From the NCBI GenBank assembly GCA_017468085.1, contig JAFUJR010000032.1, positions 1 through 64,000 of the forward strand: a DNA stretch of 64,000 nt, written 5' to 3'. Both the position numbers and the translations under genes were made by a program. This document shows, piece after piece, positions 14,741 to 39,988 of the stretch. The stretch is from Clostridia bacterium (GTDB lineage Bacteria; Bacillota; Clostridia; Christensenellales; Borkfalkiaceae). The stretch's first letter is position 1. Each line of letters starts with the position of its first letter. Under the pieces are notes generated by a model, which saw only the letters and a list, made by a program, of their open reading frames with translations, made no database searches and was not told the DNA's origin.

Positions 14741-14904
14741 ACATCTCACTTGCAACGCAAATACCACTTGCAATGCAAATACCACTTGCCGTCAGGCAAA
14801 TCTCACTTGCAACGCAAATATAACTTGCCGTCAGGCAAATCTCACTTGCAACGCAAATATAACTTGCCGTCAGGCAAATCTCACTTGCAACGCAAATACC
14901 ACTT
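14741..14904. repeat. Array of short palindromic modules
   Basis: About eight modules of 18-20 bases alternate between TTGCAACGCAA (or TTGCAATGCAA) and TTGCCGTCAGGCAA. Each is a tiny inverted repeat, joined by 7-8 base linkers such as ATCTCAC, ATACCAC and ATATAAC. The same modules recur at 19240-19340, and a variant (TTCCCGTAAGGGAA) occurs near 42190. There are no unique spacers, so this is not a CRISPR. The array ends at the terminator of the convergent lipoprotein gene. Confidence 0.85.
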
Positions 14905-19024: not shown

Positions 19025-19243
19025 GGCTAAGCCTTGACTTAGTCTTACCACCTGCCGTCCGTTCTTTGCGTCACTGTGCGGACTGTATGGGCAAGTGGTT
19101 TTCACCAGCTTTTCTTTCTGGCTAAGCCTTGACTTAGTCTTACCACCTGCCGCCCGTTCTTTGCGTCACTGTGCGGACTGTATTGGCAAGTGGTTTTCAC
19201 CAGCTTTTCTTTCTGGCTAAGCCTTGACTTAGTCTTACCACTT
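19025..19243 (-). repeat. Tandem 95-base repeat, 2.3 copies
   Basis: Units start at 19025, 19120 and 19215, an exact 95-base period. Two are full copies differing at only a few positions, and the third is cut after about 29 bases. Each begins with GGCTAAGCCTTGACTTAG, part of the palindrome CAAGGCT-A-AGCCTTG. Related units occur at 18717-18908 and 40023-40143. The gap 18634-19527 shows no credible gene. Confidence 0.9.
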
Positions 19244-19340
19244 GCAACGCAAATCTCACTTGCCGTCAGGCAAATATAACTCGCCGCAAGCGAATATCAC
19301 TTGCAACGCAAATCTCACTTGCCGTCAGGCAAATATAACT
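19240..19340. repeat. Second array of short palindromic modules
   Basis: The same TTGCAACGCAA and TTGCCGTCAGGCAA modules as at 14741-14904, here about five in a row with one variant CTCGCCGCAAGCGAA. Beyond it (to 19527) lie a stretch with a GTCATACCGACTGAGG-type repeat and a simple CATTCCGCATTT-type repeat, with no gene. Confidence 0.85.
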
Positions 19341-26911: not shown

Positions 26912-26936
26912 GCCGTCGCGCGCATAAAATAAAAAA

Positions 26937-26963
26937 GGCGAAGCCTTTCCGCAAAGCTCCGCC
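26937..26963 (-). terminator. Terminator at the end of the virion cassette
   Basis: Minus-strand GGCGGAGC and GCTTCGCC form a stem, followed by TTTTTTATTTT. It lies about 60 bases after the last virion-cassette gene and just before the dut promoter. It insulates host genes from cassette transcription. Confidence 0.85.
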
Positions 26964-27021
26964 CCCCATATTTCCCTATACGCGAAAGGTCAAACTCCCG
27001 CATTTTGCCGTAAACGGAAAG

Positions 27022-27504
27022 TCAAACCTCTTTTTTTGCCTGCTCCAAAAAGTAATCCAACAGCGATTTATATCCCTCGCATAAATAATGCGCCGCCGCC
27101 TCGTCCTTTTTCAGCTCGTAAGCCCTCTCCGTATAAGTGGAATACGCGCTCATATAATATCCCTCTACGGCATCCCGTCTATCCGCAAGCGACAACGAAA
27201 AATCCAGTTCGTAAGGCACGCCCTCAAAATCAATCGGCGTATATTGCAACTGAAAGAGCACCCCGTCGCGCACCCAACCGATTTCCTCCTCAAACACACG
27301 CGTCCAATACGCCTTCGTCCAATCCCACGTATACGACAAAAACAGCCCGTTATTGATAAGCCTGCGTTTTTCTTGCTGCAATTTCTCTGCAAGCTCGCGC
27401 AACAGCCTGTTTTTCTTTATCTGCGCAGACTTCACCTCCAACAGCTGCGCCTCCGTCAACTGCGCCAACTGCATCTCCGTGTAATCAATTACGTCAATTT
27501 CCAT
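27022..27504 (-). CDS. Small protein, last gene of the virion cassette
   Basis: 160 residues, unknown family. The first 60 residues are heptad-like and charged (MQLAQLTEAQLLEVKSAQ, LLRELAEKLQQEKRR), suggesting a coiled coil. A compact middle part contains YTWDWTKAYWTRVFEEEIGW, and the C-terminus is helical and acidic. There is no signal peptide or membrane segment. It starts 27 bases after the tail-hub-like gene. Its place at the 3' end suggests a small tail or chaperone role, which is inference only. Confidence 0.6.
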   Translation of the reverse strand: MEIDVIDYTEMQLAQLTEAQLLEVKSAQIKKNRLLRELAEKLQQEKRRLINNGLFLSYTWDWTKAYWTRVFEEEIGWVRDGVLFQLQYTPIDFEGVPYELDFSLSLADRRDAVEGYYMSAYSTYTERAYELKKDEAAAHYLCEGYKSLLDYFLEQAKKEV

Positions 27505-27531
27505 ATTTCTTCCTCCTTACCAACAGACCGC

Positions 27532-28911
27532 TCAATCCAGCCGCTCGTATTCCAATACCACGCGCCGTACCTTCGCTCCTTGCTCCAATACAAAGCGTAA
27601 ACTGAAATCCTCGCCGCGCATACCCACGCGCAGTTTTAGCTTATAAGGCAAATCTTCCACCTCAAAGTGCTCCTCGTCCTCGTCGCAAAGCACGGAAAAG
27701 GTCATGCACCCCTCGCCGTATAAAGTAACGGATTTTAAATGCTTCCGTCCCACGCCGCCAAGCTCTAAAAATCCGCTTTCAAACACAAATTCTTCCCCCG
27801 TCGGCAATTTTCCACCCAACCGCAAGGTCGCAAGCGCGTTATCTACCGAACAGATCGGCATACGGTTACACTCGTTCAAGCCCACGTAATCGCTCAAAAA
27901 ATATCCGTCCTTGCCGTCCGCACGGAGCGCTATCGTCCGCTCCGTCCCAAACGAATTTTCAGGATATTTCAGCACGTAATAATCCCCAACCGTCGCATGC
28001 GTACACACGCCGCCCTCTTTCGAGGGCGTCACCCCGTATTGCTTGCCCACGCGTTCTACGTTCCTGCCGTCAAACCGACAAATCCCGTTTTCGGACAAAA
28101 AGAATATCCAATTCTCGCAAATACCTACCGACCCGCCGAAAATCTCGCCGCCGAAATAGGACACTTCTTCCACTTGAAAATTCCTAGCCAGCCCATCGGG
28201 CTTAACGCGCATGATACCGCGTTGAAAAAACACGTAAACCCATTCGCCGTACTCCAACATATCTACGATATTCCCTTTATTCAAAGGCAGATATACGTAT
28301 CCGCCCTCGTCGTAGCTATGCGTAAAATCCCACGGCAGTTCGGGGTTGCTGTATAAAAGTTTACACGGCTTTTCACCGAGGAATACGCGGTTTTTACTAA
28401 AACAAATCGCCGCCGTCCCCTGCGCCTCGTCCACGTCCTCAATCTTCGTCCAATCCTCGCCGTCCACGCAATACGCCCCGCCGTCCCCGCAAATTACGAT
28501 GCGCGTCGTACCGTCAGGCGCGCTCACCGCGGCCATATTCGCGTTCTTCCCCAAATTCGCTTTCGTGATATACCCATCGGACAAACTTACGTACTGCATC
28601 GCCTCGCCCTTGTCGGTACGGATAAAATAATAAGGCTGCAATTCCGTCCCGCCTCCGTCCGACCAAGCCTCCATCACGTAGACGGCGCGTATCCCTTCCG
28701 CAGCCCCCGTCGCAACCTCTTCTCCGTTGCGGTCATGATAGCGTTCATACCCGATCCCGCACTGCAACTTCCCGTCCGCAAAACTGCAATTCAAGCTGTA
28801 CGCCGCCGCCAATTTCCCCTTTTCTTCCGTCGGAAACAGGCAAAAGGTATCGTAGCTCGCCTTCTCCGTTTTGCCCTTCCCTTCCGTCTTGTCAAAATCC
28901 GTCATACCCAT
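27532..28911 (-). CDS. Tail-hub/stabilisation-like protein, possible beta-propeller
   Basis: 459 residues with many repeated hydrophobic-aromatic strands separated by Gly/Asp turns, e.g. IVICGDGGAYCVDGED, WVYVFFQRGIMRVKPDG and WIFFLSENGICRFDGRN. These resemble propeller blades. Length, fold pattern and position after the adaptor match podovirus hub proteins such as P22 gp10, which close the portal channel after packaging. Sequence identity to gp10 is not claimed. The start overlaps the end of the adaptor gene by 10 bases. No needle, tailspike or fibre gene follows, which is unusual for a complete phage. Confidence 0.6.
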   Translation of the reverse strand: MGMTDFDKTEGKGKTEKASYDTFCLFPTEEKGKLAAAYSLNCSFADGKLQCGIGYERYHDRNGEEVATGAAEGIRAVYVMEAWSDGGGTELQPYYFIRTDKGEAMQYVSLSDGYITKANLGKNANMAAVSAPDGTTRIVICGDGGAYCVDGEDWTKIEDVDEAQGTAAICFSKNRVFLGEKPCKLLYSNPELPWDFTHSYDEGGYVYLPLNKGNIVDMLEYGEWVYVFFQRGIMRVKPDGLARNFQVEEVSYFGGEIFGGSVGICENWIFFLSENGICRFDGRNVERVGKQYGVTPSKEGGVCTHATVGDYYVLKYPENSFGTERTIALRADGKDGYFLSDYVGLNECNRMPICSVDNALATLRLGGKLPTGEEFVFESGFLELGGVGRKHLKSVTLYGEGCMTFSVLCDEDEEHFEVEDLPYKLKLRVGMRGEDFSLRFVLEQGAKVRRVVLEYERLD

Positions 28912-29459
28912 TTCCGCGATTGCATTCTGCCGCCCCGTTTCAACGCGTGCGACTTTGCAATACTCTCCTTATATTTATTCCCCCAAAACGCCGCCTCCGT
29001 ATACAGCCCTCGCGTCGCGCAATATTCCGCCGCTACGCCGTACGCCATCAACGCAACGCTTACGCAGGCTTGATAATCCGAATCGCTCAACAACCCCTTC
29101 TCTTCGGGCAGATAAGCGTAGTTCACCCAAACCTCTTGCTCCCCCGTATCGACGTGAATTTCCGTGGGAAATAACTGAAAGGGCAATCGCTCCCCTTTCT
29201 TGTCCGTTACCGAAATCACGCGCAGGGGATTTTGCGGAAAATTCTCGTAAAAAATCTTCCCGTCCTCAACGGAAAAAAGCGTCTTTTCAAACAGGGACAC
29301 GTAATTAAGCGCCAAATCGTTCTCTATTAAATTAAAGCAAGAAACCAGCTTCTCTGCATCTTCTTTCCCTCGCCCTGCTCCCTCGTTTACGTACGCGCTT
29401 ACCTCTTCGTCGATCTCCAACAGCTTCGCCGCCGCCAAAACGACCTCTTTAACTTTCAT
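28902..29459 (-). CDS. Head-tail connector (adaptor-like) protein
   Basis: 185 residues. It opens with helical MKVKEVVLAAAKLLEI and contains ENDLALNYVSL. A beta-rich middle (KIFYENFPQNPLRVISV) and a helical end (LMAYGVAAEYCATRGLYTEAAFW) follow. This helix-strand-helix layout is typical of gp4/gp6-type connectors that bind under the portal. It lies between the capsid and hub genes, where such adaptors are found. A hairpin (29504-29542) separates it from the capsid gene. Confidence 0.6.
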   Translation of the reverse strand: MKVKEVVLAAAKLLEIDEEVSAYVNEGAGRGKEDAEKLVSCFNLIENDLALNYVSLFEKTLFSVEDGKIFYENFPQNPLRVISVTDKKGERLPFQLFPTEIHVDTGEQEVWVNYAYLPEEKGLLSDSDYQACVSVALMAYGVAAEYCATRGLYTEAAFWGNKYKESIAKSHALKRGGRMQSRKWV

Positions 29460-29503
29460 TTCTCCTCCTTTTTCGGGTATCCGACCCGTAAAAACCTTTT
29501 AAA

Positions 29504-29542
29504 AGCACCCGTGAAATTACGTTCAACGCGTACACGGGTGCT
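29504..29542 (-). terminator. Hairpin between major capsid and connector genes
   Basis: AGCACCCGTG and CACGGGTGCT form a perfect 10-base stem with a 19-base loop. On the minus strand it is followed by TTTTAAAAGGTTTTT. It could be a partial terminator that keeps capsid mRNA more abundant than downstream mRNA, or an mRNA-stabilising 3' end. Confidence 0.55.
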
Positions 29543-29581
29543 CCAAACGGCTATTTTACGCCAATTTCTTTACGTAACGGC

Positions 29582-30730
29582 TTAAAGTTCGCTAACCCCC
29601 GTCAGCATACCCTGCGCCGAGGGCTTTTCGCAAAGCAACTCTGCGTATTTTACAAGCGTAGCCGTGTACACGGGCTTGCCGGGTACTTGCTTTAAAATTT
29701 TGCCGTCCTCCGCTTCCAACCACTGCCAATCGCAAAGCTGGCAAAGTTTGAAGTAATCGGTGTTGAGCAAATACATCGTATTCGCGGGGCAGAATTTATC
29801 CACGACAACGGGAATACCCAACACCTCAATCGCCGTAAAACCGCCTTCGATTTGGATGGTCTTGACGGGAATACTATGCACTTTGTAATATTCCCTGATC
29901 GCACGGCGTACCCCCCAAGAACAGATGATAAAGTTTACACGGTCCCCCGAAGTCGCCTCGATGTTGTCGATAGCCTGCTCCAACGCTTCTTCGCTAAAAT
30001 TCCCGAAATCCTGGTCAAGATAGGGTTTCATTCCCATCTCGTCTCTGGTTAAGCCGTAAAGAGGTTCCGAGCCGAAAATCGCGCCCAAGCCGGTAATCTC
30101 ACTTTGCGACGAACCGTGAAGCGCAATTTCCAACCCCATGATATTTTCGTCAAATATCTTCCCCTCGATACGAATACGCTTATTGGGGTAATCCACCTCG
30201 ATAACTCTCATATTTACCCACTCGGCATCGCCGTCTACCACGTCTACGTACATACCGATTGCAAAATTCTGAACGTTGTCCACGTAAACCCAATAGCCTT
30301 CAACGTCGTCAACGCAGCTAAGGGAGCCGTAACCCGTGCCGTAAAGCATTCTGCCAAAATTGAAGGACGCGCTCTTGATAAGAGACTGCATTTCTTCGTT
30401 GACAAGGTTGACAAACGCGCCTTCGTTATTTGCGGACGCGCGAATGGCTTTATCCGAAATTTCAATCGTGCCGTATAAATTTTTAAGTCCCGTTCGCATT
30501 TGGATATATTTAGGATCTCTCGCGACGGGCAAATCCCCCGTTTCCTCGCCCGCGCCGATGCCGCCGTTAATACCCACGCGTACCGTCTTGCACACTTCCT
30601 TACCCGTAACGTAATTGCTGGTACGTTCGATTTTCGCTAAGAAAGGGTTTATCTTCAAATTCAAAGACTCCGTCATCGCGTCCAAATAAAAGCTCTTCAA
30701 TGCGCTATCTGCGCTACTCAATGTTACCAT
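29582..30730 (-). CDS. Major capsid protein
   Basis: 382 residues. N-terminal KSFYLDAMTESLNLKINPFLAKIERTS leads into beta-rich segments (VRVGINGGIGAGEETGDLP, YGTIEISDKAIRAS) and the long spine helix FVNLVNEEMQSLIKSASFNFGRMLYG, as in HK97-fold shells. GGFTAIEVLGIPVVVDKFC and the late CDWQWLEAEDG also fit this family. It lies directly after the scaffold gene. The frame is intact and no proteolytic maturation signal is evident. Assignment rests on pattern and gene order. Confidence 0.85.
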   Translation of the reverse strand: MVTLSSADSALKSFYLDAMTESLNLKINPFLAKIERTSNYVTGKEVCKTVRVGINGGIGAGEETGDLPVARDPKYIQMRTGLKNLYGTIEISDKAIRASANNEGAFVNLVNEEMQSLIKSASFNFGRMLYGTGYGSLSCVDDVEGYWVYVDNVQNFAIGMYVDVVDGDAEWVNMRVIEVDYPNKRIRIEGKIFDENIMGLEIALHGSSQSEITGLGAIFGSEPLYGLTRDEMGMKPYLDQDFGNFSEEALEQAIDNIEATSGDRVNFIICSWGVRRAIREYYKVHSIPVKTIQIEGGFTAIEVLGIPVVVDKFCPANTMYLLNTDYFKLCQLCDWQWLEAEDGKILKQVPGKPVYTATLVKYAELLCEKPSAQGMLTGVSEL

Positions 30731-30798
30731 ATATAATTCTCCTTACTTGATTTTTTAAGGGCTTCGCCGCAACGGACCGTCGCGACAGCCCGCATTTT

Positions 30799-31662
30799 TT
30801 ACGGCTGCTTAAAATATTGCAACGCCATCACGCCCGCGTCCCCGATATTTTTTGCTTTTAAGGGCGGCGTAACGGGCGTCCCCGCGCCGTTCGCCGTCAA
30901 CGGCGCGCCCGTTTTTCCAATCGAGGCGAGATATTCCCCAATAATCTTTAATCTCACACCCTCGTTACGGCTCGCCTGTCGGTAAAGCTCCTCCGACGAA
31001 AACGCCGTATTTCCGTGTTCCGCGACGGCAGGAAACGCCTTTTCCCCCTTAACTCCTTCCTCGTGCACGTCCCCGTTCTCTTTCAAAAACGGAGCTTCGC
31101 TACGCGCAGGCTCTACGTCATATTCCGCCGCATTCCCCTCGCCGTCAGGCTTCACCGCAAGGGTGTTTTCCTCCTTCAACGCGTACACGCCCCCTTCCTT
31201 TGCCCCATTTTCAAGGCAGAGCTCCTGCGTTTGGAGCGCCGCAGTACTCCCTGCGGCAACCGAGTCCTCTACGGTTTTCCCTTCGTCGTCCGTGTCTGCG
31301 GGTTCGCCGCGTCCGTCAAGGTCGTCGGTATGCGCTTTACCAACCAAGGCAAGAAAATCGTCAAACGCTCTCGCCTCCTCCCTTCTCGCCTTAGCGTGTT
31401 TACGGAGCTTTTCCGCCCCAACCGCCGCCGCGCCGTCGCCCTGCAAATTATCCGCCAACCTTTCCAACTCTTTCAAGCGTTGGCTACGTCTTGTAAATTC
31501 CGCCTCCAACGCCCCGTAAGCCCTCGCAAGGGCGTTTACGTCCTTAAACTTCCCCAAAACCGCCGAGGCGTTTTCACTCTCTTGCGCCACCGCGCCGCTC
31601 GCCGTTGCGATTGCCTCCGCTTTAGTCGTTTCTTCGTAAACGTTATCCTCTTTCTTTTCCAT
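30799..31662 (-). CDS. Scaffold protein
   Basis: 287 residues, acidic and Ala/Glu-rich. The motif GKFKDVNALARAYGALEAEFTRRSQRLKEL is the characteristic opening of many scaffolds upstream of the capsid gene. The middle is low in complexity and probably disordered. The C-terminus has a short basic/hydrophobic segment (LKAKNIGDAGVMALQYFKQP), the usual capsid-docking end. Scaffolds guide procapsid assembly and leave before or during packaging. Confidence 0.75.
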   Translation of the reverse strand: MEKKEDNVYEETTKAEAIATASGAVAQESENASAVLGKFKDVNALARAYGALEAEFTRRSQRLKELERLADNLQGDGAAAVGAEKLRKHAKARREEARAFDDFLALVGKAHTDDLDGRGEPADTDDEGKTVEDSVAAGSTAALQTQELCLENGAKEGGVYALKEENTLAVKPDGEGNAAEYDVEPARSEAPFLKENGDVHEEGVKGEKAFPAVAEHGNTAFSSEELYRQASRNEGVRLKIIGEYLASIGKTGAPLTANGAGTPVTPPLKAKNIGDAGVMALQYFKQP

Positions 31663-31683
31663 CTATCTCCTTTCCTCCGTTAA

Positions 31684-31718
31684 AAATTTATTCACTCTTC
31701 ACTTTTCACTTTTCACTT
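31684..31718. repeat. Simple TTCACTTTTCAC repeat inside the virion cassette
   Basis: TTCACTCTTCACTTTTCAC and further TTTTCACTTT units fill the gap between portal and scaffold genes. A similar TTATTCACTTTTCACTC stretch stands upstream of the host GntR gene at about 18655-18675. This suggests that host-type intergenic repeats have accumulated inside the cassette. Confidence 0.6.
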
Positions 31719-33599
31719 TTACTTTCTCGCCTCCGTCCCCCGCTTCGCCTTATGCGCCTCAATATGCGCCTCGAACCTCTTCTTCATCTCGCCCCCGTCC
31801 GCAGCACGTTTAAATTCTGCCGACAAAAGGAAACGGATATGCTCGGTGATATGCAGCTCGTGGTCGTCGTAGAAATCCACCTCTGTCGCCTCCGTTTTTA
31901 AGGTCAAATTTTCTTCTCCCGCCTTTGCAATATGCAAAGAGGATATATCCCTCGCATTCTCATAACCGCCAAACCCAAACGCGTCCAAAATACGCTGTTT
32001 ATTTTCCTGCGTCAAATTGCCGTCCTTATCCGTCAAAAGCCCCGCCTCGTACAGCTTCAAAAGGGTCGCTTTTTTCTCCTCAGGCGTCGTTACGTCCTGC
32101 GATTCAAAACGAATGTCGCTCACGTCCAGCTTGGAAGCGTTGAAATAATAAACCTGCGTTTTTTTATTCTCGCCCGTTAGGGTCATCAAGCGCGCGTTCC
32201 CCGCAAATTGGCGGTACAACCGCAAAATCTGCCTGCCGATCCCTTTCATCGCCTTATGTATACACGCCACCGACGCCGCCAAGCGCGATTCGTCCTGCGA
32301 AATGAGCAACTGCAACCCCGTCGCGGACGTTACGCGCACCGCCGTCGAGCTCTGCGCCACGTCGCTTACGCCCCCAATCACGGAAAATTCCTTTTCCAAC
32401 CATTCTTCTTCGTCCTTGAACTCGCTTGGCACTTTCCCGCAATCCAGCATTTCCGGCGCTTTCCCGCCTTGACGGTAAACGAGCACTTTTCCGGGCAGCA
32501 ACCCTTCTTCCGCAAGCTCGTCCGTATCCACAGACCCGTCCTCCACCGTCAAAACGCCCATCGAAAGTCTGTTCAAAAATTCGTGTTTGCGGTTGCGAAC
32601 GGCGTTGTAAGCGCGCTGAACGGGGATAAGTCTGTCTACGATGCTCGTCGCAAAAAACGCTCCGGGCAAGCGCAAGCTGTCCTGCTTGATAAACGGAAAG
32701 GTTCTCTCGCCGCGCTCGCCGTTTTTATAGGGCAAAGGCCCCTCGTATAAAAGTTTCCCCGCCGCCACGATTTCCAAAGCGCCGTCCGGTCTTTCTGCCG
32801 TCGGCTTGGTGTATCGCTCCAAAAGCAACACTCCGTCCTCCAACTTCGCCGCTTGCATACCCAAAGTGTTTTTCGGCAATTTTGCCGCCGACGCCTCCGA
32901 GTATCCAAACAAGTCGGTCATCTCCGTACCCGAAACAGCCACGCCGAATTTCTCTAAAATATACCCCGCCGAAACCGCTTGCGCATGGATAACGCTCTGC
33001 ACGCCGTCAAGATCCTCCGCGTCCAAACGGTTAGGAAAAATCTCAAACGGAGGCACGATAGACACCTGCACTTCCCCCTCGTAAACGGGTCTGTTTTCCC
33101 CGTCAACGGCTACCTGCCTGCCTCCTTCCTCGTTCCAAAGCACTTTATAAAAGACGCTTCCGCACACTTCCGACCAAGCCGTCGCTTTGGACAAGCTCTC
33201 CTCCAAGCCGATACGTTCCTGCACGTACTGTAAAATCCCCGTCGCCAACTGCGCCGCCTTCAAATCTCCGTCCTCGTCCGAAAAAGCGCGTACTCGCAAC
33301 ACGGGTTTCAACTTTTCCAGCTTTGCCACACGCGAATCCACCGCAGGCGCAATGTGGTTGAATACGCGGCGAGACTGCCAATAATACTGCTTGTCCTCCT
33401 CTACCAATCCGCCGAGCGGGGACACGTCGCAATACTGATTTCCGCTGAAAAAATTCATATTCAAACGCCAACCGTTTTCAATGCTCCGCCTTGCCTCTCT
33501 GCGTTTTTCAAAGTCCGCCGTAATTTCGGCGGCCAAACGCTCCGCCTCCAACTCCTTCGCCCTTTCCTCCGCTTGTTTATCAAACGTTTTTTGCTCCAT
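31719..33599 (-). CDS. Portal protein, P22-type
   Basis: 626 residues, close to podovirus P22-like portals. The N-terminus (AEITADFEKRREARRSIENGWRLNMNFFSGNQYCDV) and RVFNHIAPAVDSRVAKLEKLKPVL match the P22-portal family. The helical stem/channel region is around FSVIGGVSDVAQSSTAVRVTSATGLQLL, followed by a helical crown. It forms the dodecameric ring through which DNA enters the head. The frame is intact. It follows the Lys-rich TerS-like gene and precedes the scaffold, the usual order. Confidence 0.88.
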   Translation of the reverse strand: MEQKTFDKQAEERAKELEAERLAAEITADFEKRREARRSIENGWRLNMNFFSGNQYCDVSPLGGLVEEDKQYYWQSRRVFNHIAPAVDSRVAKLEKLKPVLRVRAFSDEDGDLKAAQLATGILQYVQERIGLEESLSKATAWSEVCGSVFYKVLWNEEGGRQVAVDGENRPVYEGEVQVSIVPPFEIFPNRLDAEDLDGVQSVIHAQAVSAGYILEKFGVAVSGTEMTDLFGYSEASAAKLPKNTLGMQAAKLEDGVLLLERYTKPTAERPDGALEIVAAGKLLYEGPLPYKNGERGERTFPFIKQDSLRLPGAFFATSIVDRLIPVQRAYNAVRNRKHEFLNRLSMGVLTVEDGSVDTDELAEEGLLPGKVLVYRQGGKAPEMLDCGKVPSEFKDEEEWLEKEFSVIGGVSDVAQSSTAVRVTSATGLQLLISQDESRLAASVACIHKAMKGIGRQILRLYRQFAGNARLMTLTGENKKTQVYYFNASKLDVSDIRFESQDVTTPEEKKATLLKLYEAGLLTDKDGNLTQENKQRILDAFGFGGYENARDISSLHIAKAGEENLTLKTEATEVDFYDDHELHITEHIRFLLSAEFKRAADGGEMKKRFEAHIEAHKAKRGTEARK

Positions 33600-33683
33600 C
33601 TATCTTTATTCCTCCTTTTTACTTTTTTAGTTTTACACCCCTCGCCTTCCTTCAAGAAAGCCGCAAACCGTGTATGCAATTTC

Positions 33684-34211
33684 TTATTTTGCCGACTTCT
33701 TCACGGCAGACTTTTTCGCCACAGCCGTTTTCTTCGCAGCCGTTTTCTTCGCAGCCCCCTTTTTCTTCGCGCCGCTTTTTTTCGCCACGGAACGCTTCGC
33801 GCTCGTCTGCGCTTGCTCTTTTCCCTCCTCGACTTGCCCCGCAACGATAGCCGCCTGCTCTTTCAATTCGGCAAGCAGTTTCGCCTTTTCCGCCTGCAAC
33901 GCCTCGTCCGTCCAACCGCCGTAATCGGCGCTCTCCCCCGAGGTAAGCAAGAGCTGCACCGCCTTCAAATCGGGCGGCACGTCCTTCTTCGTCTTTTTTC
34001 GCTTGGTCAGCTTAAGCTCGCCGTTCACCTCCGCGTATTCTTCCGTTACTTCGGCAATTTGATATCCGAGCGCCACCTTCATCAGCGCGTCCCCAATCTT
34101 TTCTTCCTTTTTCTTCGTCGTTTTTTTCACCGTTTTCTTGGGCTCGCTTTCCCCCGTGCCGCCCGCTTCCACGACGTTATTTTCCACAGTTTCCTCTATC
34201 TTCTTTTCCAC
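33684..34211 (-). CDS. Lys-rich TerS-like DNA-binding protein (GTG start)
   Basis: About 175 residues from GTG 34211, chosen because AAGGAG lies 4 bases upstream; the longer frame reads into a CATTCAGCGC-type intergenic repeat. The middle (IGDALMKVALGYQIAEVTEEYAEV, then KDVPPDLKAVQLLL) resembles small-terminase proteins that carry a V/Y-PPD-x-A segment. The last 45 residues are Ala/Lys repeats (KKTAAKKTAVAKKSAVKKS), like the tail of histone H1. Such a tail should bind DNA without sequence preference. Gene order is large terminase first, then this gene, the reverse of most phages. Confidence 0.55.
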   Translation of the reverse strand: MEKKIEETVENNVVEAGGTGESEPKKTVKKTTKKKEEKIGDALMKVALGYQIAEVTEEYAEVNGELKLTKRKKTKKDVPPDLKAVQLLLTSGESADYGGWTDEALQAEKAKLLAELKEQAAIVAGQVEEGKEQAQTSAKRSVAKKSGAKKKGAAKKTAAKKTAVAKKSAVKKSAK

Positions 34212-34278
34212 TTCTCTCTCCTTACGATCCACCTTTTCGATCTTCCCATTTCCCATCGCAATCCACAATTTCGCGCTC

Positions 34279-34315
34279 GGCATTCAGCGCTTGCGGAACA
34301 CACTCCGCATTTACA
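34279..34315. repeat. CATTCAGCGC/CTCCGCATTTAC repeat
   Basis: CATTCAGCGC, then CTCCGCATTTAC in the gap between the TerS-like and large-terminase genes. Related text occurs at 25350-25372, 19487-19520 and 37402-37460. It is a host-type intergenic repeat lying inside the cassette. Confidence 0.55.
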
Positions 34316-35747
34316 AAAAGCTTCGCTTATTCTTCAACGCCCTTATCCGCCTTTCCTTATCCTTTTGAATGGAAGTGAGCGCAGTCTTGGGCGCGCTTTT
34401 TTGCGGTCTCGACATCAAATAATACCGCATCTCGTCCAAGGCGTGGTCGGCTGTCTTTCTCGGCAAGTCCCCGCTCCCCCAATAATACCCTTTCAACTCG
34501 CTGATCAGTCGAACGCAGTTTTTAAAGATGTAAATATTCGGCAACCCGTTTTTTCGGCTCAAATAGCTCTTCACCCTCGCTATGCCCGAAAACATATCTT
34601 TTTCCACGTTCGGATTGACCAAAATCCCCCGCTCGTAAAAGAGCTCCACCACGCTCTTTACCCCGCCCAAGGTTCGTTGCTTCGCCGCGCTGTCGATCAG
34701 CGAACATATCCTCCCCTTGCCGTCCGTATGCCAGCCCAGCTCGCGGCAAATGCGTTTTATCTGCTCGGCGTGATAATCGATATCCCGCCCCGCCTCGTAA
34801 TGCTCTGCCATAACGTAAACGTTATCGTCAAAATCCACCGCGTACCAATGCGCCGAAAGCGGATTGTTCAAACCGGGGTCGATAGAAATATTATCCTGCC
34901 ACTCTTTCGGCACGGAAAAGGGCTCGATGACGTGTACGTTCTCGTCGAATTCGGGATAGACAAGCCCCGCCCCGTCCGAGATAAACCGCCCGTACCGCCT
35001 CGACTGCAAAGTGCGTTCGTCCAAGCTCGCTTCAAGCGCCGCCACCTCGTCCTTATCCAAATACGGATTGTCGCTCCACTCGACAAATTCATACCAAACC
35101 TCGGGGTCGGCGCGCTCGTTCAAATAAATATCTTTGTACACGAACGTCAAGCCCTTGAGCGGCGTCATCGTCCCAAACATCTCCCCGCGCCTGTCTAAAA
35201 GCCGCATCTTGCATTCCATATAAATATCCTGCGGCGGTTCTTCGTCAAACCAAACGAAATCGAGGGACGCCCCTTGGAATTTTTCCCTGCCTTGATCGCA
35301 ACTCTTAAATCCGATCACGGAAACCCCGCCCAACACGTTTTTGACGCGGATAAAATCGATGATCCCGTTTTCAGGCGAGTCCTTCCGCCCGCTCAGCATC
35401 ACAACGTCCTCTATCCAATCCTTGCGCAAATAATGCAATATCTTCTTTTGCGCGACGTCTCTCTGTACCTGTGCCGAAACGGAAACCACCCACCCTTGCA
35501 CCTCCGCCCGATTTTGACGGTAAGGGTGAATCCCTCTTGCAAGGTATACGCACTCCACCGCGCCGCACTCCGTCTTTCCTGACCGATTGCCGCCAAACAC
35601 CCACCTATTCCGTTTTAAACACTTGTGAAAGGCAATCTGCTTCTCGTGCTTTTTCTCCCCCGCGTTGTACGCCGCCAAATGATCGCGCGACCTACGGTTT
35701 TTTAATTCCCTTTCAATCTTAATCAGCTTTTCTACAATCTCTTCCAT
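34311..35747 (-). CDS. Terminase large subunit
   Basis: 478 residues. Walker A is GGNRSGKT (52-59) and Walker B is LDFVWFDEEP (162-171), including the catalytic glutamate. The RNase H-like nuclease has acidic residues in SIDPGLNNP (Asp290), SLIDSAA (Asp352) and TADHALDEM (Asp434/438). All catalytic positions are present, so it should be an active packaging motor and headful-type nuclease of the podovirus (Terminase_6) kind. It is preceded by an apparent minus-strand start region near 35750-35800. The opposite-strand gene at 35893 separates it from the first cassette gene. Confidence 0.92.
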   Translation of the reverse strand: MEEIVEKLIKIERELKNRRSRDHLAAYNAGEKKHEKQIAFHKCLKRNRWVFGGNRSGKTECGAVECVYLARGIHPYRQNRAEVQGWVVSVSAQVQRDVAQKKILHYLRKDWIEDVVMLSGRKDSPENGIIDFIRVKNVLGGVSVIGFKSCDQGREKFQGASLDFVWFDEEPPQDIYMECKMRLLDRRGEMFGTMTPLKGLTFVYKDIYLNERADPEVWYEFVEWSDNPYLDKDEVAALEASLDERTLQSRRYGRFISDGAGLVYPEFDENVHVIEPFSVPKEWQDNISIDPGLNNPLSAHWYAVDFDDNVYVMAEHYEAGRDIDYHAEQIKRICRELGWHTDGKGRICSLIDSAAKQRTLGGVKSVVELFYERGILVNPNVEKDMFSGIARVKSYLSRKNGLPNIYIFKNCVRLISELKGYYWGSGDLPRKTADHALDEMRYYLMSRPQKSAPKTALTSIQKDKERRIRALKNKRSFL

Positions 35748-35892
35748 AATCCCTAAAAAACTCTCAAAACCCGACTGCGCTCTCCCTAATATACTATAAA
35801 ATAGCCTCGTCTGAAAATCGAGTGCGTTTTATCCTATTACAGTATACTTTGCAAGCACCGCGCGCAACAAACGGCGACGATATAGGTCTTTT

Positions 35893-36612
35893 ATGCGAAA
35901 AATCCTCACGAAGGCGCTCTCGCCCCTCCTCATCTTCATATTCCTTTGTATGTCCTTCACCTCGTACATGGGTGGGGTGTTTTGGGCAAAAGCGGAAACT
36001 TCCCTCCCGCAAAACGGGGATTACGCCTACGTGCAAACGGACGACGTTTTTTTCTACGCCACCGCCAACGCACAGAACGGCTTATTTCGGCTTCCGCCCA
36101 CCTATTACGTCCGATTGCTCGATTACACCCCCACCTTTTGCAGAGTGGAATACCAAACGGACGGCACGCACACCCAGCGCCTCGTCGGCTACGTCAAAAC
36201 GGAACAGCTCACCTTCGTACCCTACGTTCCAAAACGCCCTTACTTAACTTACATATTCGACGTCGAATACAAAATCGACGACGACGCCAAAACGTCCGAC
36301 GGATTTTTAACGCAAATTATTATGACCTGCGCCTACTACGGCGACTATAACGTCGGCTCGAACACCTATTGCTACGTCCTCCGCGAGGGGGAATTCGGCT
36401 ATATTCCTAAGCCCGACGACCTATACTTTGACGAGAATACGGAATACGCCGAATACTTATCCTCCCTCACCTCGCCGTCAACGGACAGCGCAACCCCTAA
36501 GGCAAAAAACAACACCCCGGCGCAAATCGCCATTTTGATTGCTCTTTGTCTGCTCGTCCCCCTACTCGCCGCCCTCATTTTAAAACCAAAATCCACCCAC
36601 GACCCTGAGTAA
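35893..36612 (+). CDS. Secreted SH3-like protein with C-terminal anchor
   Basis: 239 residues. An N-terminal signal-like segment (LSPLLIFIFLCMSF) is followed by about 180 extracytoplasmic residues and a C-terminal membrane helix (IAILIALCLLVPLLAALIL) with a short basic tail. The middle (DDVFFYATANAQNGLFRLP, FCRVEYQ, RLVGYVKTEQLTFVPYVP) looks like a bacterial SH3 domain. A very similar pattern (VFLYKFPYLNSLL, TGFIPKAYVTDF, final anchor) closes the 809-residue protein at 37559. The two are likely related. It is the only plus-strand gene inside the virion region. TATACT stands about 40 bases upstream as a possible -10. Function unknown. Confidence 0.7.
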   Translation: MRKILTKALSPLLIFIFLCMSFTSYMGGVFWAKAETSLPQNGDYAYVQTDDVFFYATANAQNGLFRLPPTYYVRLLDYTPTFCRVEYQTDGTHTQRLVGYVKTEQLTFVPYVPKRPYLTYIFDVEYKIDDDAKTSDGFLTQIIMTCAYYGDYNVGSNTYCYVLREGEFGYIPKPDDLYFDENTEYAEYLSSLTSPSTDSATPKAKNNTPAQIAILIALCLLVPLLAALILKPKSTHDPE

Positions 36613-36651
36613 CGTTCTCCCCATCACGCCGCAAGGCTTGTATATCTCGCC

Positions 36652-37164
36652 TCACTTCGCCGCGCAAGCCAACCGTCCTTCTTCTAAGCACACTTTCTCG
36701 TCCCGTCCTTCCGCTACGAAGCGGGCAATCCGCCGAAAAATATCCAAGTGCGCAAACTCCGCCTCGTACCGTTCCTCGGTCAAACCGACGGAGCGCATCA
36801 TCGCGCTCACCTTTTCGCCCAACCGTTTCTGTTCCCGAAAATACTTTCGTTCGCTCCAACCCGACTTCGCGCTTTCGTTTTTCAAAAATTCGCGAAGTTG
36901 TTTTCGTTTCCCAAAATACCGAAAGGACAAAAGCCGGTTTTCCCGCTCTTGCAACCGCCCGAAAACCTTTTCCAAATCCTCTTTCAGCCCCTCCAAACTT
37001 CTCTTTACGATAATTTCACTTGCTATGTATTCCGCCAAGCGCTCTGCCGTCATGCCGCTGCCGTGCGAGAGTATCGCCCTGTTGCGGATATGTCCCTCAT
37101 AATCCTTTTGCACCGTCTTTAAAAACGGATAAACGTATAACATTACTTTCGCGTAATTTTCCAA
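36652..37164 (-). CDS. Sigma-like/ArpU-type regulator at the head of the cassette (TTG start)
   Basis: 170 residues from TTG 37164, with a perfect AGGAGGT 9 bases upstream. It is helical and charged throughout. The segment LLSFRYFGKRKQLREFL then WSERKYFREQKRLGEKV resembles sigma region 4 or ArpU/RinA-type late regulators: an LRYFG-like helix followed by a helix-turn-helix containing SERTYFR. I infer a transcription factor for the cassette. It has a promoter at 37204-37231 and an SOS box at 37262-37275. An opposite-strand gene lies between it and the terminase. It could instead be an unrelated host gene. Confidence 0.5.
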   Translation of the reverse strand: MENYAKVMLYVYPFLKTVQKDYEGHIRNRAILSHGSGMTAERLAEYIASEIIVKRSLEGLKEDLEKVFGRLQERENRLLSFRYFGKRKQLREFLKNESAKSGWSERKYFREQKRLGEKVSAMMRSVGLTEERYEAEFAHLDIFRRIARFVAEGRDEKVCLEEGRLACAAK

Positions 37165-37558: not shown

Positions 37559-39988
37559 ATGAAGAATTTTAAGACGACGATGATTTGTATACTTTCTTTG
37601 GCAGCGTGCTCCATTTCGGGCGCGGCGCTTTCGCTTGTCCAAAAAAATCTAACGGCAAACGCGTTCGAGCCTATCCCCGCCGCCTCTCTGTTTTTGCCTG
37701 ATTCCTACAAGCAGTACCTCGACCTCAACGCCCCCACCGACGTTGCCGTTAACGAGGACTACACGGCGATTGCAGACGGAAACGTCATCTACGTCTACGA
37801 CCAAGCAGACGGGGTATATCGCGAATACGTCCACAACGTAAACTCCGACCCCTTAAAAAACAACGTTACCAAATTACAATTTGACGAAACGGGAAATTTA
37901 TATTTCCTCGACGCGACTTATCTTTATATCCTCGCGCCGAATACCTTGGACGAGCCTACCCCGACGGTGAAGAACACAAGTTTCCCTTGCACGACCTTCT
38001 ACCTGCACGGCGATATGCTGTATTTCACGGACACGAAAGCCTCCACCACTCAGCTTTCGCAGTTAGATTTACTCGCTTACGATATTGACGTAACCCACGC
38101 CAAAACCTTAAAGAGCGACCTTTCGGGCAAACCCACCATCGCCGTATACGAAAACGAGTTGTACTATACGTCCGGCAATAATTTGCGGAAAATCGATTTA
38201 CAAGCGCAATCCGCCCAAGACGCGTCGTCCACCGTCGCCGTATTCGACAACTTCTCCGCTTTTTCCTCTATCCGTATCGTAAACGGCGTATTCTGTTGCA
38301 CGAGCACGAACGACCCTGCAACCTTCTACGCCTACGATTTGACCGAGCTTGCGACGACAAGCATCATCAACGAAAATTCCCTCGCGCCGCTCAACAAAAC
38401 GGACGGCAAATTTTCCGCCCTCACCGTATTTGACGGCGCCGTATACGCCGTGGACGGCAATTCGGTGCGTGAATTCAACTTAACCGACTGCGATTTCACT
38501 GACCGTGAAATCGGCAACCGCTCCTCTTCCGTTAACCGTATAAACGACGCGGCGGACGTCTGCCTTGCAGATAATCTGTTGCTCATTGCCGACAACGGAA
38601 ACAAGCGCATTTCCGTCCTCGACACCGCTACGGACAATTTCCAAACCCCTATCGAAAACGAATTGATTGCCGAAAGGCTCGTTTCCGACGGCAACACTTT
38701 ACTCGTTGCCAACCAAGACCAAGCGATTTTGTACAGTCTGCAATCGGAAACGTACGGCGAAAAACTTGCGGAATTTGACGATTTTATCGGCAATATCGTC
38801 GGCGCGGCAAGCGTGTACGGTAAGTATTATTTGGCTTTGGACAATTACTCGCACTACCTTATCGGCACGGACGAAAACGGCGAATGGCAATATGCGGAAA
38901 CCAAGCGCGCCGCCACCCGTATCCCCTCACTTTTGACCGCTGACGCTTACGGAAATCTGTACGTCGCAAGCGGCGCAAAAATCCATCGTTACACCGAGGC
39001 GCAGTTTCTTTCCGAAAACGAGGACGGCGTGGAGGTGTACGGCAATCTGCCCCAAAACGCAAAGAAAATTTCCGTCGATTACGAGGGCAACCTCTACGCT
39101 TTGATAGAGGGAAAACTTTATAAACTTGACGGGGAAACGCCCACGCAGTACGGGCTGAACGACCCCCTCGTTTATACGGCTTCCGCCCAAACGACGGTAA
39201 CCGCTTTCACTTTCGGCATTGAAGAAAACAAAACCTACGTTTTGTACGCCGAAAATTATATGGCGCAGACCGCGCTTTTAAATCTGCCCACCGTAAAAAC
39301 GATAGCGGTAAACGGCGCGGACGAAAGTATTTTCGCCAAAGAGAGCGCGACTTTCTCCGTCGTGCAGACCCAACCCGACGCGTTGACCGTCTACTTCGAT
39401 ATTAACGCCTTAGAGGGCGCAACGGAATTCCCTTACCTTTCCTTTGAACGCAGAGCAATGCCCTTCACCGCCTTAAAAATCGGGGAAACGGAAAAGCACA
39501 ACGCCCTTGCGATTTTCAACGAGGAAACGCACGAATATCAAACCTGCCTCGTCCTCAAAACGCAGTGTAACGAGCTTCCCGCCGAAGAATACCGCTCTGA
39601 CTACGACAGCGAAAAAACGGGCTATCTCACTAACGCGGTTTTCCTTTATAAGTTCCCTTATTTAAATTCCCTGCTCACCGCGTCGAGGTTGAATGCGGAT
39701 ATGCAAATCACCTTGCTCGGCGAAATCGATAAGCTCGACCACCCCTATTACCACGTCGCTTACGTGGACGAAAACGGCGTGCGCCAAACGGGCTTTATCC
39801 CCAAGGCGTACGTAACCGATTTCAGCGCAACGACGCCCATTCCCGAGCAGCTCACCTATGGTAGCCTCACCTCGAACAACGACAGTATTTTCCGCCTTGT
39901 TTACCTCATTTTGGGTACGGCGGTCATTTGCATCCTCGTCGATATATTGATTTTGAAAAAGCGCAAGAACGACGAAACGCAAAACTGA
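37559..39988 (+). CDS. Secreted propeller-like protein with SH3-like and membrane-anchor C-terminus
   Basis: 809 residues. It has an N-terminal signal-like helix (TMICILSLAACSISGAALSL). About 550 residues follow of repeated strand-turn units with YWTD/NHL-like phrases: GNLYFLDATYLYI, NLRKIDLQ, AVYAVDGNSVREFNL and NLLLIADNGNKRISVLD. These suggest one or two beta-propellers. An SH3-like region (VFLYKFPYLNSLL ... TGFIPKAYVTDF) and a single C-terminal helix with basic tail KKRKN end it. It is probably displayed outside the membrane. The end resembles that of the gene at 35893. ATG 37559 lies at the predicted transcription start with no ribosome-binding site. Confidence 0.75.
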   Translation: MKNFKTTMICILSLAACSISGAALSLVQKNLTANAFEPIPAASLFLPDSYKQYLDLNAPTDVAVNEDYTAIADGNVIYVYDQADGVYREYVHNVNSDPLKNNVTKLQFDETGNLYFLDATYLYILAPNTLDEPTPTVKNTSFPCTTFYLHGDMLYFTDTKASTTQLSQLDLLAYDIDVTHAKTLKSDLSGKPTIAVYENELYYTSGNNLRKIDLQAQSAQDASSTVAVFDNFSAFSSIRIVNGVFCCTSTNDPATFYAYDLTELATTSIINENSLAPLNKTDGKFSALTVFDGAVYAVDGNSVREFNLTDCDFTDREIGNRSSSVNRINDAADVCLADNLLLIADNGNKRISVLDTATDNFQTPIENELIAERLVSDGNTLLVANQDQAILYSLQSETYGEKLAEFDDFIGNIVGAASVYGKYYLALDNYSHYLIGTDENGEWQYAETKRAATRIPSLLTADAYGNLYVASGAKIHRYTEAQFLSENEDGVEVYGNLPQNAKKISVDYEGNLYALIEGKLYKLDGETPTQYGLNDPLVYTASAQTTVTAFTFGIEENKTYVLYAENYMAQTALLNLPTVKTIAVNGADESIFAKESATFSVVQTQPDALTVYFDINALEGATEFPYLSFERRAMPFTALKIGETEKHNALAIFNEETHEYQTCLVLKTQCNELPAEEYRSDYDSEKTGYLTNAVFLYKFPYLNSLLTASRLNADMQITLLGEIDKLDHPYYHVAYVDENGVRQTGFIPKAYVTDFSATTPIPEQLTYGSLTSNNDSIFRLVYLILGTAVICILVDILILKKRKNDETQN

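Follow-up and report, generated by a model that had tools for sequence, protein, structure and literature searches.

RcGTA, the gene transfer agent of the Alphaproteobacteria, is inherited vertically at the scale of an order, is owned by its host, and has a small terminase subunit (TerS) that does not direct packaging from a pac site. It is siphovirus-like, carries tail and baseplate genes, and its host phylum is unrelated to that of the locus described here. Beyond the Alphaproteobacteria, only a handful of such agents is known. FpGTA of Faecalibacterium was called the first gene transfer agent from the human gut by its authors in January 2026 (PMC12946183). FpGTA I spans 10.5 kb and encodes a TerS without an obvious DNA-binding domain, the large terminase (TerL), portal, scaffold and capsid; it occurs in all twelve Faecalibacterium genomes its authors examined, and FpGTA particles of about 40 nm contain about 9 kb of DNA (PMC12946183). 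The same source reports GTA-like packaging in Christensenellaceae, in 3 of 25 events (PMC12946183).

The window analysed here, a stretch of 64,000 nucleotides from a member of the Borkfalkiaceae (order Christensenellales), holds a cassette of nine open minus-strand reading frames at 27022..37164 (Table 1). We conclude that this cassette probably belongs to its host, is passed on vertically and encodes a podovirus-like gene transfer agent that resembles FpGTA in gene content and is spread across much of the Christensenellales. The nine open frames lie where the first-pass annotation had placed them, with one correction: the plus-strand gene for an SH3-like protein, which has no Pfam match, sits inside the span and separates TerL from the sigma-like regulator. 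The window comes from a draft genome of 2.06 Mb (81.67% complete) that contains the cassette region in two assembled versions: an identical cassette on contig C29 was rejected as a true second copy, being a redundant assembly of 93 kb.

Table 1. Features of the cassette and its immediate surroundings in the window.
Feature	Coordinates	Strand	Length	Basis
Intrinsic-terminator-like hairpin, 3' of last gene	26933..26967	-		long stem and position
Small protein, last gene	27022..27504	-	160 aa	role by position
Tail hub or nozzle-like protein	27532..28911	-	459 aa	phrog_3287 1e-4, weak
Head-tail adaptor-like protein	28902..29459	-	185 aa	by position
Major capsid protein	29582..30730	-	382 aa	phrog_14242 2.4e-44
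Scaffold-like protein	30799..31662	-	287 aa	position and profile across loci
Portal, P22/SU10 type	31719..33599	-	626 aa	P22_portal 3e-14; phrog_156 1.5e-33
Small-terminase core with Lys-rich tails, no recognisable DNA-binding domain	33684..34283	-	199 aa	phrog_309, sequence
TerL (terminase large subunit)	34311..35747	-	478 aa	Terminase_6N/6C; phrog_2 6e-28
SH3-like protein, secreted or membrane-anchored	35893..36612	+	239 aa	SH3, signal and TM segments judged by eye
Sigma-70 region-4-like regulator, TTG start	36652..37164	-	170 aa	profile comparison
NHL-like-repeat secreted/membrane protein, divergent from regulator	37559..39988	+	809 aa	NHL match below cut-off

The motifs that we take to be Walker A, Walker B and the acidic nuclease residues are invariant across 28 aligned TerLs, which bears out the earlier statement that every catalytic residue of the motor is present. 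The regulator is of the sigma-like type also proposed before: Sigma70_r4_2 is matched by 10 of 33 aligned members (the window's own is not among them), and the profile of the group matches SigF in the PDB at 3e-5. Of 32 hub members, 20 match phrog_3287; downstream of the hub, other lineages have a protein of 271-359 aa, and the two of these that were scanned match DUF7934. A terminator had been noted at the left end beside dut, and a hairpin does follow the last gene, although it was picked from 17 such sites in the region, where shuffled sequences lead one to expect 13.6. A consensus promoter is predicted for dut at 26911-26882, from the consensus match alone. An enriched-word search upstream of TerL brought out nothing promoter-like; the most enriched words resemble the beginning of the SH3 gene that diverges from TerL.

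Codon use in the cassette is close to that of its minus-strand neighbours (RSCU r 0.935, versus 0.615 for plus-strand neighbours; GC3 0.64 versus 0.65 in the minus-strand flank), as a long-resident locus would have it. The claim that cassette and host intergenic DNA share the same simple repeats proved weak: the array at 31691-31725 has the unit TTCACTT, whereas those at 14.7 and 19.2 kb are built from a different one. A Pfam scan of twenty ORFs, ten within the span and ten flanking it, reveals no integrase, repressor, replication or lysis gene, in agreement with the first reading, nor was any phage gene seen in the flanks scanned. As expected of a gene transfer agent, then, no replication or integration genes accompany the cassette in these 20 ORFs; searches in the remainder of the window genome covered TerL, portal and capsid and two families of holins.

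How widely is the cassette distributed? Of 301 genomes from the window's family, 283 have a portal match, representing 17 of 18 genera; among the 173 good genomes it is present in 164 and missing from nine. Two portal matches occur in 15 of the 283 (one being the redundantly assembled window genome), a point against the gene transfer agent reading. TerL is present in all 20 portal-positive family genomes examined (12 genera, 64-70% identity), and the TerL of one family member (G076) is identical to that of Candidatus Borkfalkia stercoripullorum, a genus that NCBI assigns to Christensenellales. Across the order, TerL matches were obtained in 310 of 396 genomes, 243 at E<=1e-60 and 67 weaker; among the matches listed with an identity this is at least 60%, with 54-58% in families f13 and f33. 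Matches are weak or lacking in families f2, f4, f5, f11, f17, f21, f23 and f31, which also counts against that reading. The capsid profile reaches E<=1e-60 in 234 of the 396. At this threshold 231 genomes have both genes, 12 TerL only (four of them with cut TerL genes), three capsid only and 150 neither.

Outside the order, the TerL of six genomes in a class sample of 391 matches at E<=1e-60; one is in a prophage-like locus and the other five belong to family f76. Capsid matches at E<=1e-20 occur in 12 of the 391, from six families. Eight of these loci were opened: five (L257 and L259-L262) are phage-like by their neighbours, two (L258 in G996 and L263 in G817) consist of capsid and scaffold amid host genes, and L256 is on a contig too short for placement.

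Genes for motor, portal, scaffold, capsid and connector keep their order, occur mostly in single copy and evolve under purifying selection. The complete set of seven core genes was recovered at 38 of the 41 loci from the window's family and at 21 of the 28 from other families, in a set selected for holding TerL or portal and with profiles built from the same loci. The three incomplete family loci (L081, L088, L089) stop at contig ends; five of the seven others are split loci of family f28. In our reading, L064 and L178 miss the automatic collinearity count only because open frames extend past gene starts. The first-pass annotation had pointed to the site between dut and the SH3-like gene as the place to look in relatives: the gene set recurs, and the SH3-like gene is TerL's immediate, oppositely oriented neighbour in 62 of 63 loci holding both, but the dut flank is confined to 4 of 80 mapped loci, all from the window's genus. 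The sigma-like gene was detected by profile in 61 of 69 mapped order loci. The NHL-like neighbour characterises the window's family (35 of 41 loci, versus 1 of 28 others), and other families have an extra gene of 78-144 aa between capsid and adaptor (32 loci) and a small cysteine-rich gene (21 loci).

Purifying selection on capsid and packaging genes, expected of a gene transfer agent, is evident from median dN/dS values of 0.099 for TerL (30 pairs), 0.114 for portal (25) and 0.118 for capsid (20), drawn from a set of 122 loci by way of the 30 closest of the 630 pairs left once ten loci identical to others had been dropped; the pairs have loci in common and are not independent. Between the window and its closest relative found, the values are 0.038 for TerL and 0.030 for portal. 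The adaptor has a median of 0.24, and the hub, at 0.323 (14 pairs), is the fastest-evolving core gene. A decaying prophage remnant, the alternative offered with the first reading, would account for the 18 of 301 family genomes that have no portal match, four of which have a TerL interrupted near residue 279 by inserted sequence. The purifying dN/dS leads us to reject this explanation as extremely improbable, since the median lies at 0.10-0.12 for these genes, the highest single pair among core genes reaches 0.33, and of the capsid frames listed only that of G573 contains a stop. Together, spread, purifying selection and host-like codon use uphold the earlier view of a long-resident, domesticated cassette.

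The cassette is encoded on the host chromosome and vertically inherited, as is a gene transfer agent. For 30 genomes, the rpoB tree and a tree of TerL, capsid and portal have 13 of 27 splits in common (shuffles: mean 0.24, maximum 2), with a Mantel r of 0.715 (0 of 2000 permutations), and in both the window's family forms one clade with full support. Taken singly, TerL (r 0.708) and portal (0.629) follow rpoB closely, capsid (0.463) and hub (0.111, with 352 of 2000 permutations equally high) less so. The concatenated tree contains seven supported conflicts with rpoB, and in the capsid and hub trees the window's family is not a single clade; these discrepancies count against reading the locus as a gene transfer agent.

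Family f28 shows that the cassette can be divided. In all nine of its genomes in which a capsid locus was read, the TerS-portal-scaffold-capsid-adaptor-hub block is kept intact away from TerL, on a different contig or about 23-103 kb distant, and SH3-like and sigma-like genes remain beside TerL in the five f28 TerL loci mapped. The genomes with a split locus measure 0.8-1.3 Mb; three further f28 genomes (L174, L206, L207) have a single joint locus. A capsid check of 22 genomes found a full-length capsid elsewhere in 13 with an intact TerL (nine of f28, G319 and three of f76). No capsid was found in four TerL-less genomes (G028, G327, G315, G357) or in G688, whose TerL sits in a prophage-like locus; of four genomes with a cut TerL, two retain a C-terminal capsid scrap alone and two none. 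The splits in G319 and G857 are less certain because their contigs are short or ending.

Could these loci be active temperate phages or satellites that are merely very common in such hosts? Related modules do lie in prophage-looking loci, judged by eye from their neighbours, in G688 (L191), G817 (L194) and one copy in G332 (L197). Spread, the host-like tree and the division of the f28 locus into two places argue against ordinary prophages, as does the mostly single copy; moreover, the genes that recur around the cassette in 82 loci are of structural, holin-like or host type, and among the clusters listed no integrase or replication gene stood out. We regard this explanation as very unlikely. 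That G332 has a phage-like locus with related genes in addition is an observation that counts against a gene transfer agent.

The Lys-rich protein downstream of TerL had been called TerS-like, and this identification stands: its core of 137 aa matches phrog_309, a small-terminase family (7e-5), and so do 35 of 38 TerS cores. With its Lys-rich tails included, the whole window protein has no phrog_309 match at the cut-offs used, which is a point against the gene transfer agent reading, and the TerS profile finds nothing credible in the PDB. The cassette TerS are shortened. Phage-type and TerS-first proteins (L191, L198, L199, L197) align to phrog_309 from position 125-135 on; whole cassette TerS align only from 188-199 on (five of six), and the window's core alone over 195-243. 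In the part that the cassette TerS lack, helix-turn-helix families find a match in the G688 prophage TerS (L191, 4e-5) and, weakly, in the f13 TerS (L199); they match neither the longer f33 TerS, nor that of L197, nor any of six cassette TerS. At most 11 residues precede the core in 53 of 64 loci, 20-62 in nine (including the window, with 55) and 74-79 in two; the unassigned stretches of the nine count against a gene transfer agent. The TerS core alignment matches the G688 prophage TerS by hhalign over residues 66-170 of 178 (E 0.002, probability only 13.8). TerS is encoded downstream of TerL in the window and most mapped loci; it lies upstream in L198 and L199, as well as in L185, where the SH3 gene comes between the two. 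In families f33 and f13 the TerS preceding TerL is longer, a further point against. Judged by these alignments, the cassette TerS retains a small terminase's C-terminal core and lacks a recognisable DNA-binding part. Such shortening is consistent with random packaging of host DNA.

As a gene transfer agent, the cassette might operate as follows. The sigma-like protein would turn the operon on in some cells, and capsids would assemble from the cassette proteins. TerL, freed from guidance by TerS to a pac site, would load these capsids with host DNA, and the window TerS may, through its Lys-rich tails, bind DNA of any sequence. Adaptor and hub, forming a short tail, would then pass the DNA to related cells, completing a transfer of genes.

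Release may proceed via holins in several sister families, where the locus contains holin-like genes in two clusters (19 and 18 of 82 clustered loci); two members scanned per cluster match PF10960 (9e-16, 5e-18) and phrog_297 (3e-10, 9e-8). Neither cluster has a member from loci of the window's family. Two holin families were also looked for across window-family genomes: a first search matched none of 20, Bacillus subtilis being its sole matching named control, with no genome of another family as control; a second matched none of 16, while both other-family genomes matched. Nor was a lysis gene seen beside the window's cassette, and these absences count against a gene transfer agent.

Alternatively, the DNA-filled particle of a domesticated locus may serve another purpose than gene transfer, such as DNA export or the killing of relatives. 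PBSX of Bacillus subtilis, as the source describes it, is likewise domesticated and packages DNA, and differs in being a tailocin-like killer particle whose packaged DNA is not injected (PMC12946183). The rapid evolution of the hub is what a target-binding part might show. Set against this, packaging motor and portal are strongly constrained and long-tail families find no match among the cassette proteins, and we consider such a purpose unlikely.

For the gene transfer agent itself, a more far-reaching history is possible, if doubtful. The cassette may be one of the oldest and widest of its kind, acquired before most Christensenellales families split, with the DNA-binding part of TerS cut off, and retained even by genomes smaller than 1 Mb. 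Its release in Borkfalkia and its kin, the window's family, would be independent of holins, perhaps by way of the conserved SH3-like and NHL-like membrane proteins encoded next to it.

If the gene transfer agent reading is true, a large hidden channel of gene exchange extends across much of an order of mostly uncultured gut bacteria, and the cassette is a candidate operon for the GTA-like packaging that the FpGTA report mentions in Christensenellaceae (PMC12946183). The split loci, TerS with and without an N-terminal part and the loss of holins offer natural experiments on the taming of phages. Virus catalogues are affected as well: the eight IMG/VR contigs that a search with the window's TerL brought up all carry cassette genes. 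The open-licence PMC literature yielded no description of this locus, which is weak evidence of novelty given that scope.

Among known phages, Microbacterium phage Shocker and Arthrobacter phage Jasmine have a capsid homologous to that of the cassette, as does Shocker a TerL. Phages with this capsid family are 21-28% identical to the cassette capsid in 13 of 13 records found, and the TerL of phage isolates reaches about 29% identity or less among the best 20 of 552. RcGTA is similar in its vertical inheritance, order-scale spread and ownership by the host; it is siphovirus-like, whereas the cassette is podovirus-like. FpGTA is described from Faecalibacterium, the cassette from many families of one order, and the two are likened here by description, not by sequence (PMC12946183). 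The TerS of FpGTA I is upstream of TerL, in contrast to the downstream position in the cassette, and some strains have a second locus for lysis and tail fibres, none of which was found for the window cassette when two holin families were searched (PMC12946183). In other respects FpGTA I, as given in the same source, is similar: both loci have about 10 kb, podovirus-like parts and no replication genes; both have a TerS without a recognisable DNA-binding domain, by sequence in the cassette; and, in our own reading of the accession numbers of portal and capsid, one gene lies between these two in FpGTA I, as it does in the cassette (PMC12946183).

Four genomes, which belong to two genera, have a gene for the terminase large subunit (TerL) that is broken near residue 279 (loci L202-L205, in G123, G007, G075 and G053), and the interrupting sequence has a similar end in all four. 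For G007, the insert lies at the position expected for the remainder of TerL, the genes after it and the greater part of the capsid gene, and it holds a DNA-methyltransferase-like gene, as judged by eye. It looks as if the cassette had been replaced here by a defence island. At two loci of family f28 in which the cassette is split (L171 and L172), a secreted-looking protein of ~790 aa is encoded immediately downstream of TerL.

Cassette genes are present on all eight IMG/VR contigs found with the window's TerL (L043-L050), which are catalogued as viral; two of these carry both the sigma-like regulator and SH3-like genes, and one further contig carries the SH3-like gene.

In the window's own genome, contigs C23 and C29 represent a duplicate assembly of 93,114 bases (99.998% identity). 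Repeat arrays and a tandem pair of capsid genes are located below.

Coordinates of repeated features
Feature	Location	Description
Tandem repeat arrays	window 14743-14904 and 19025-19340	units 39-bp, 95-bp and CACTTGC-type
Tandem capsid genes	G388 C2:8035-10370	two full-length genes, single small genome

A capsid and scaffold pair of the same family stands isolated amid host genes, with a serC-like gene close by. It occurs in two other families within the class (L258 in G996; L263 in G817) and is possibly another domesticated capsid.
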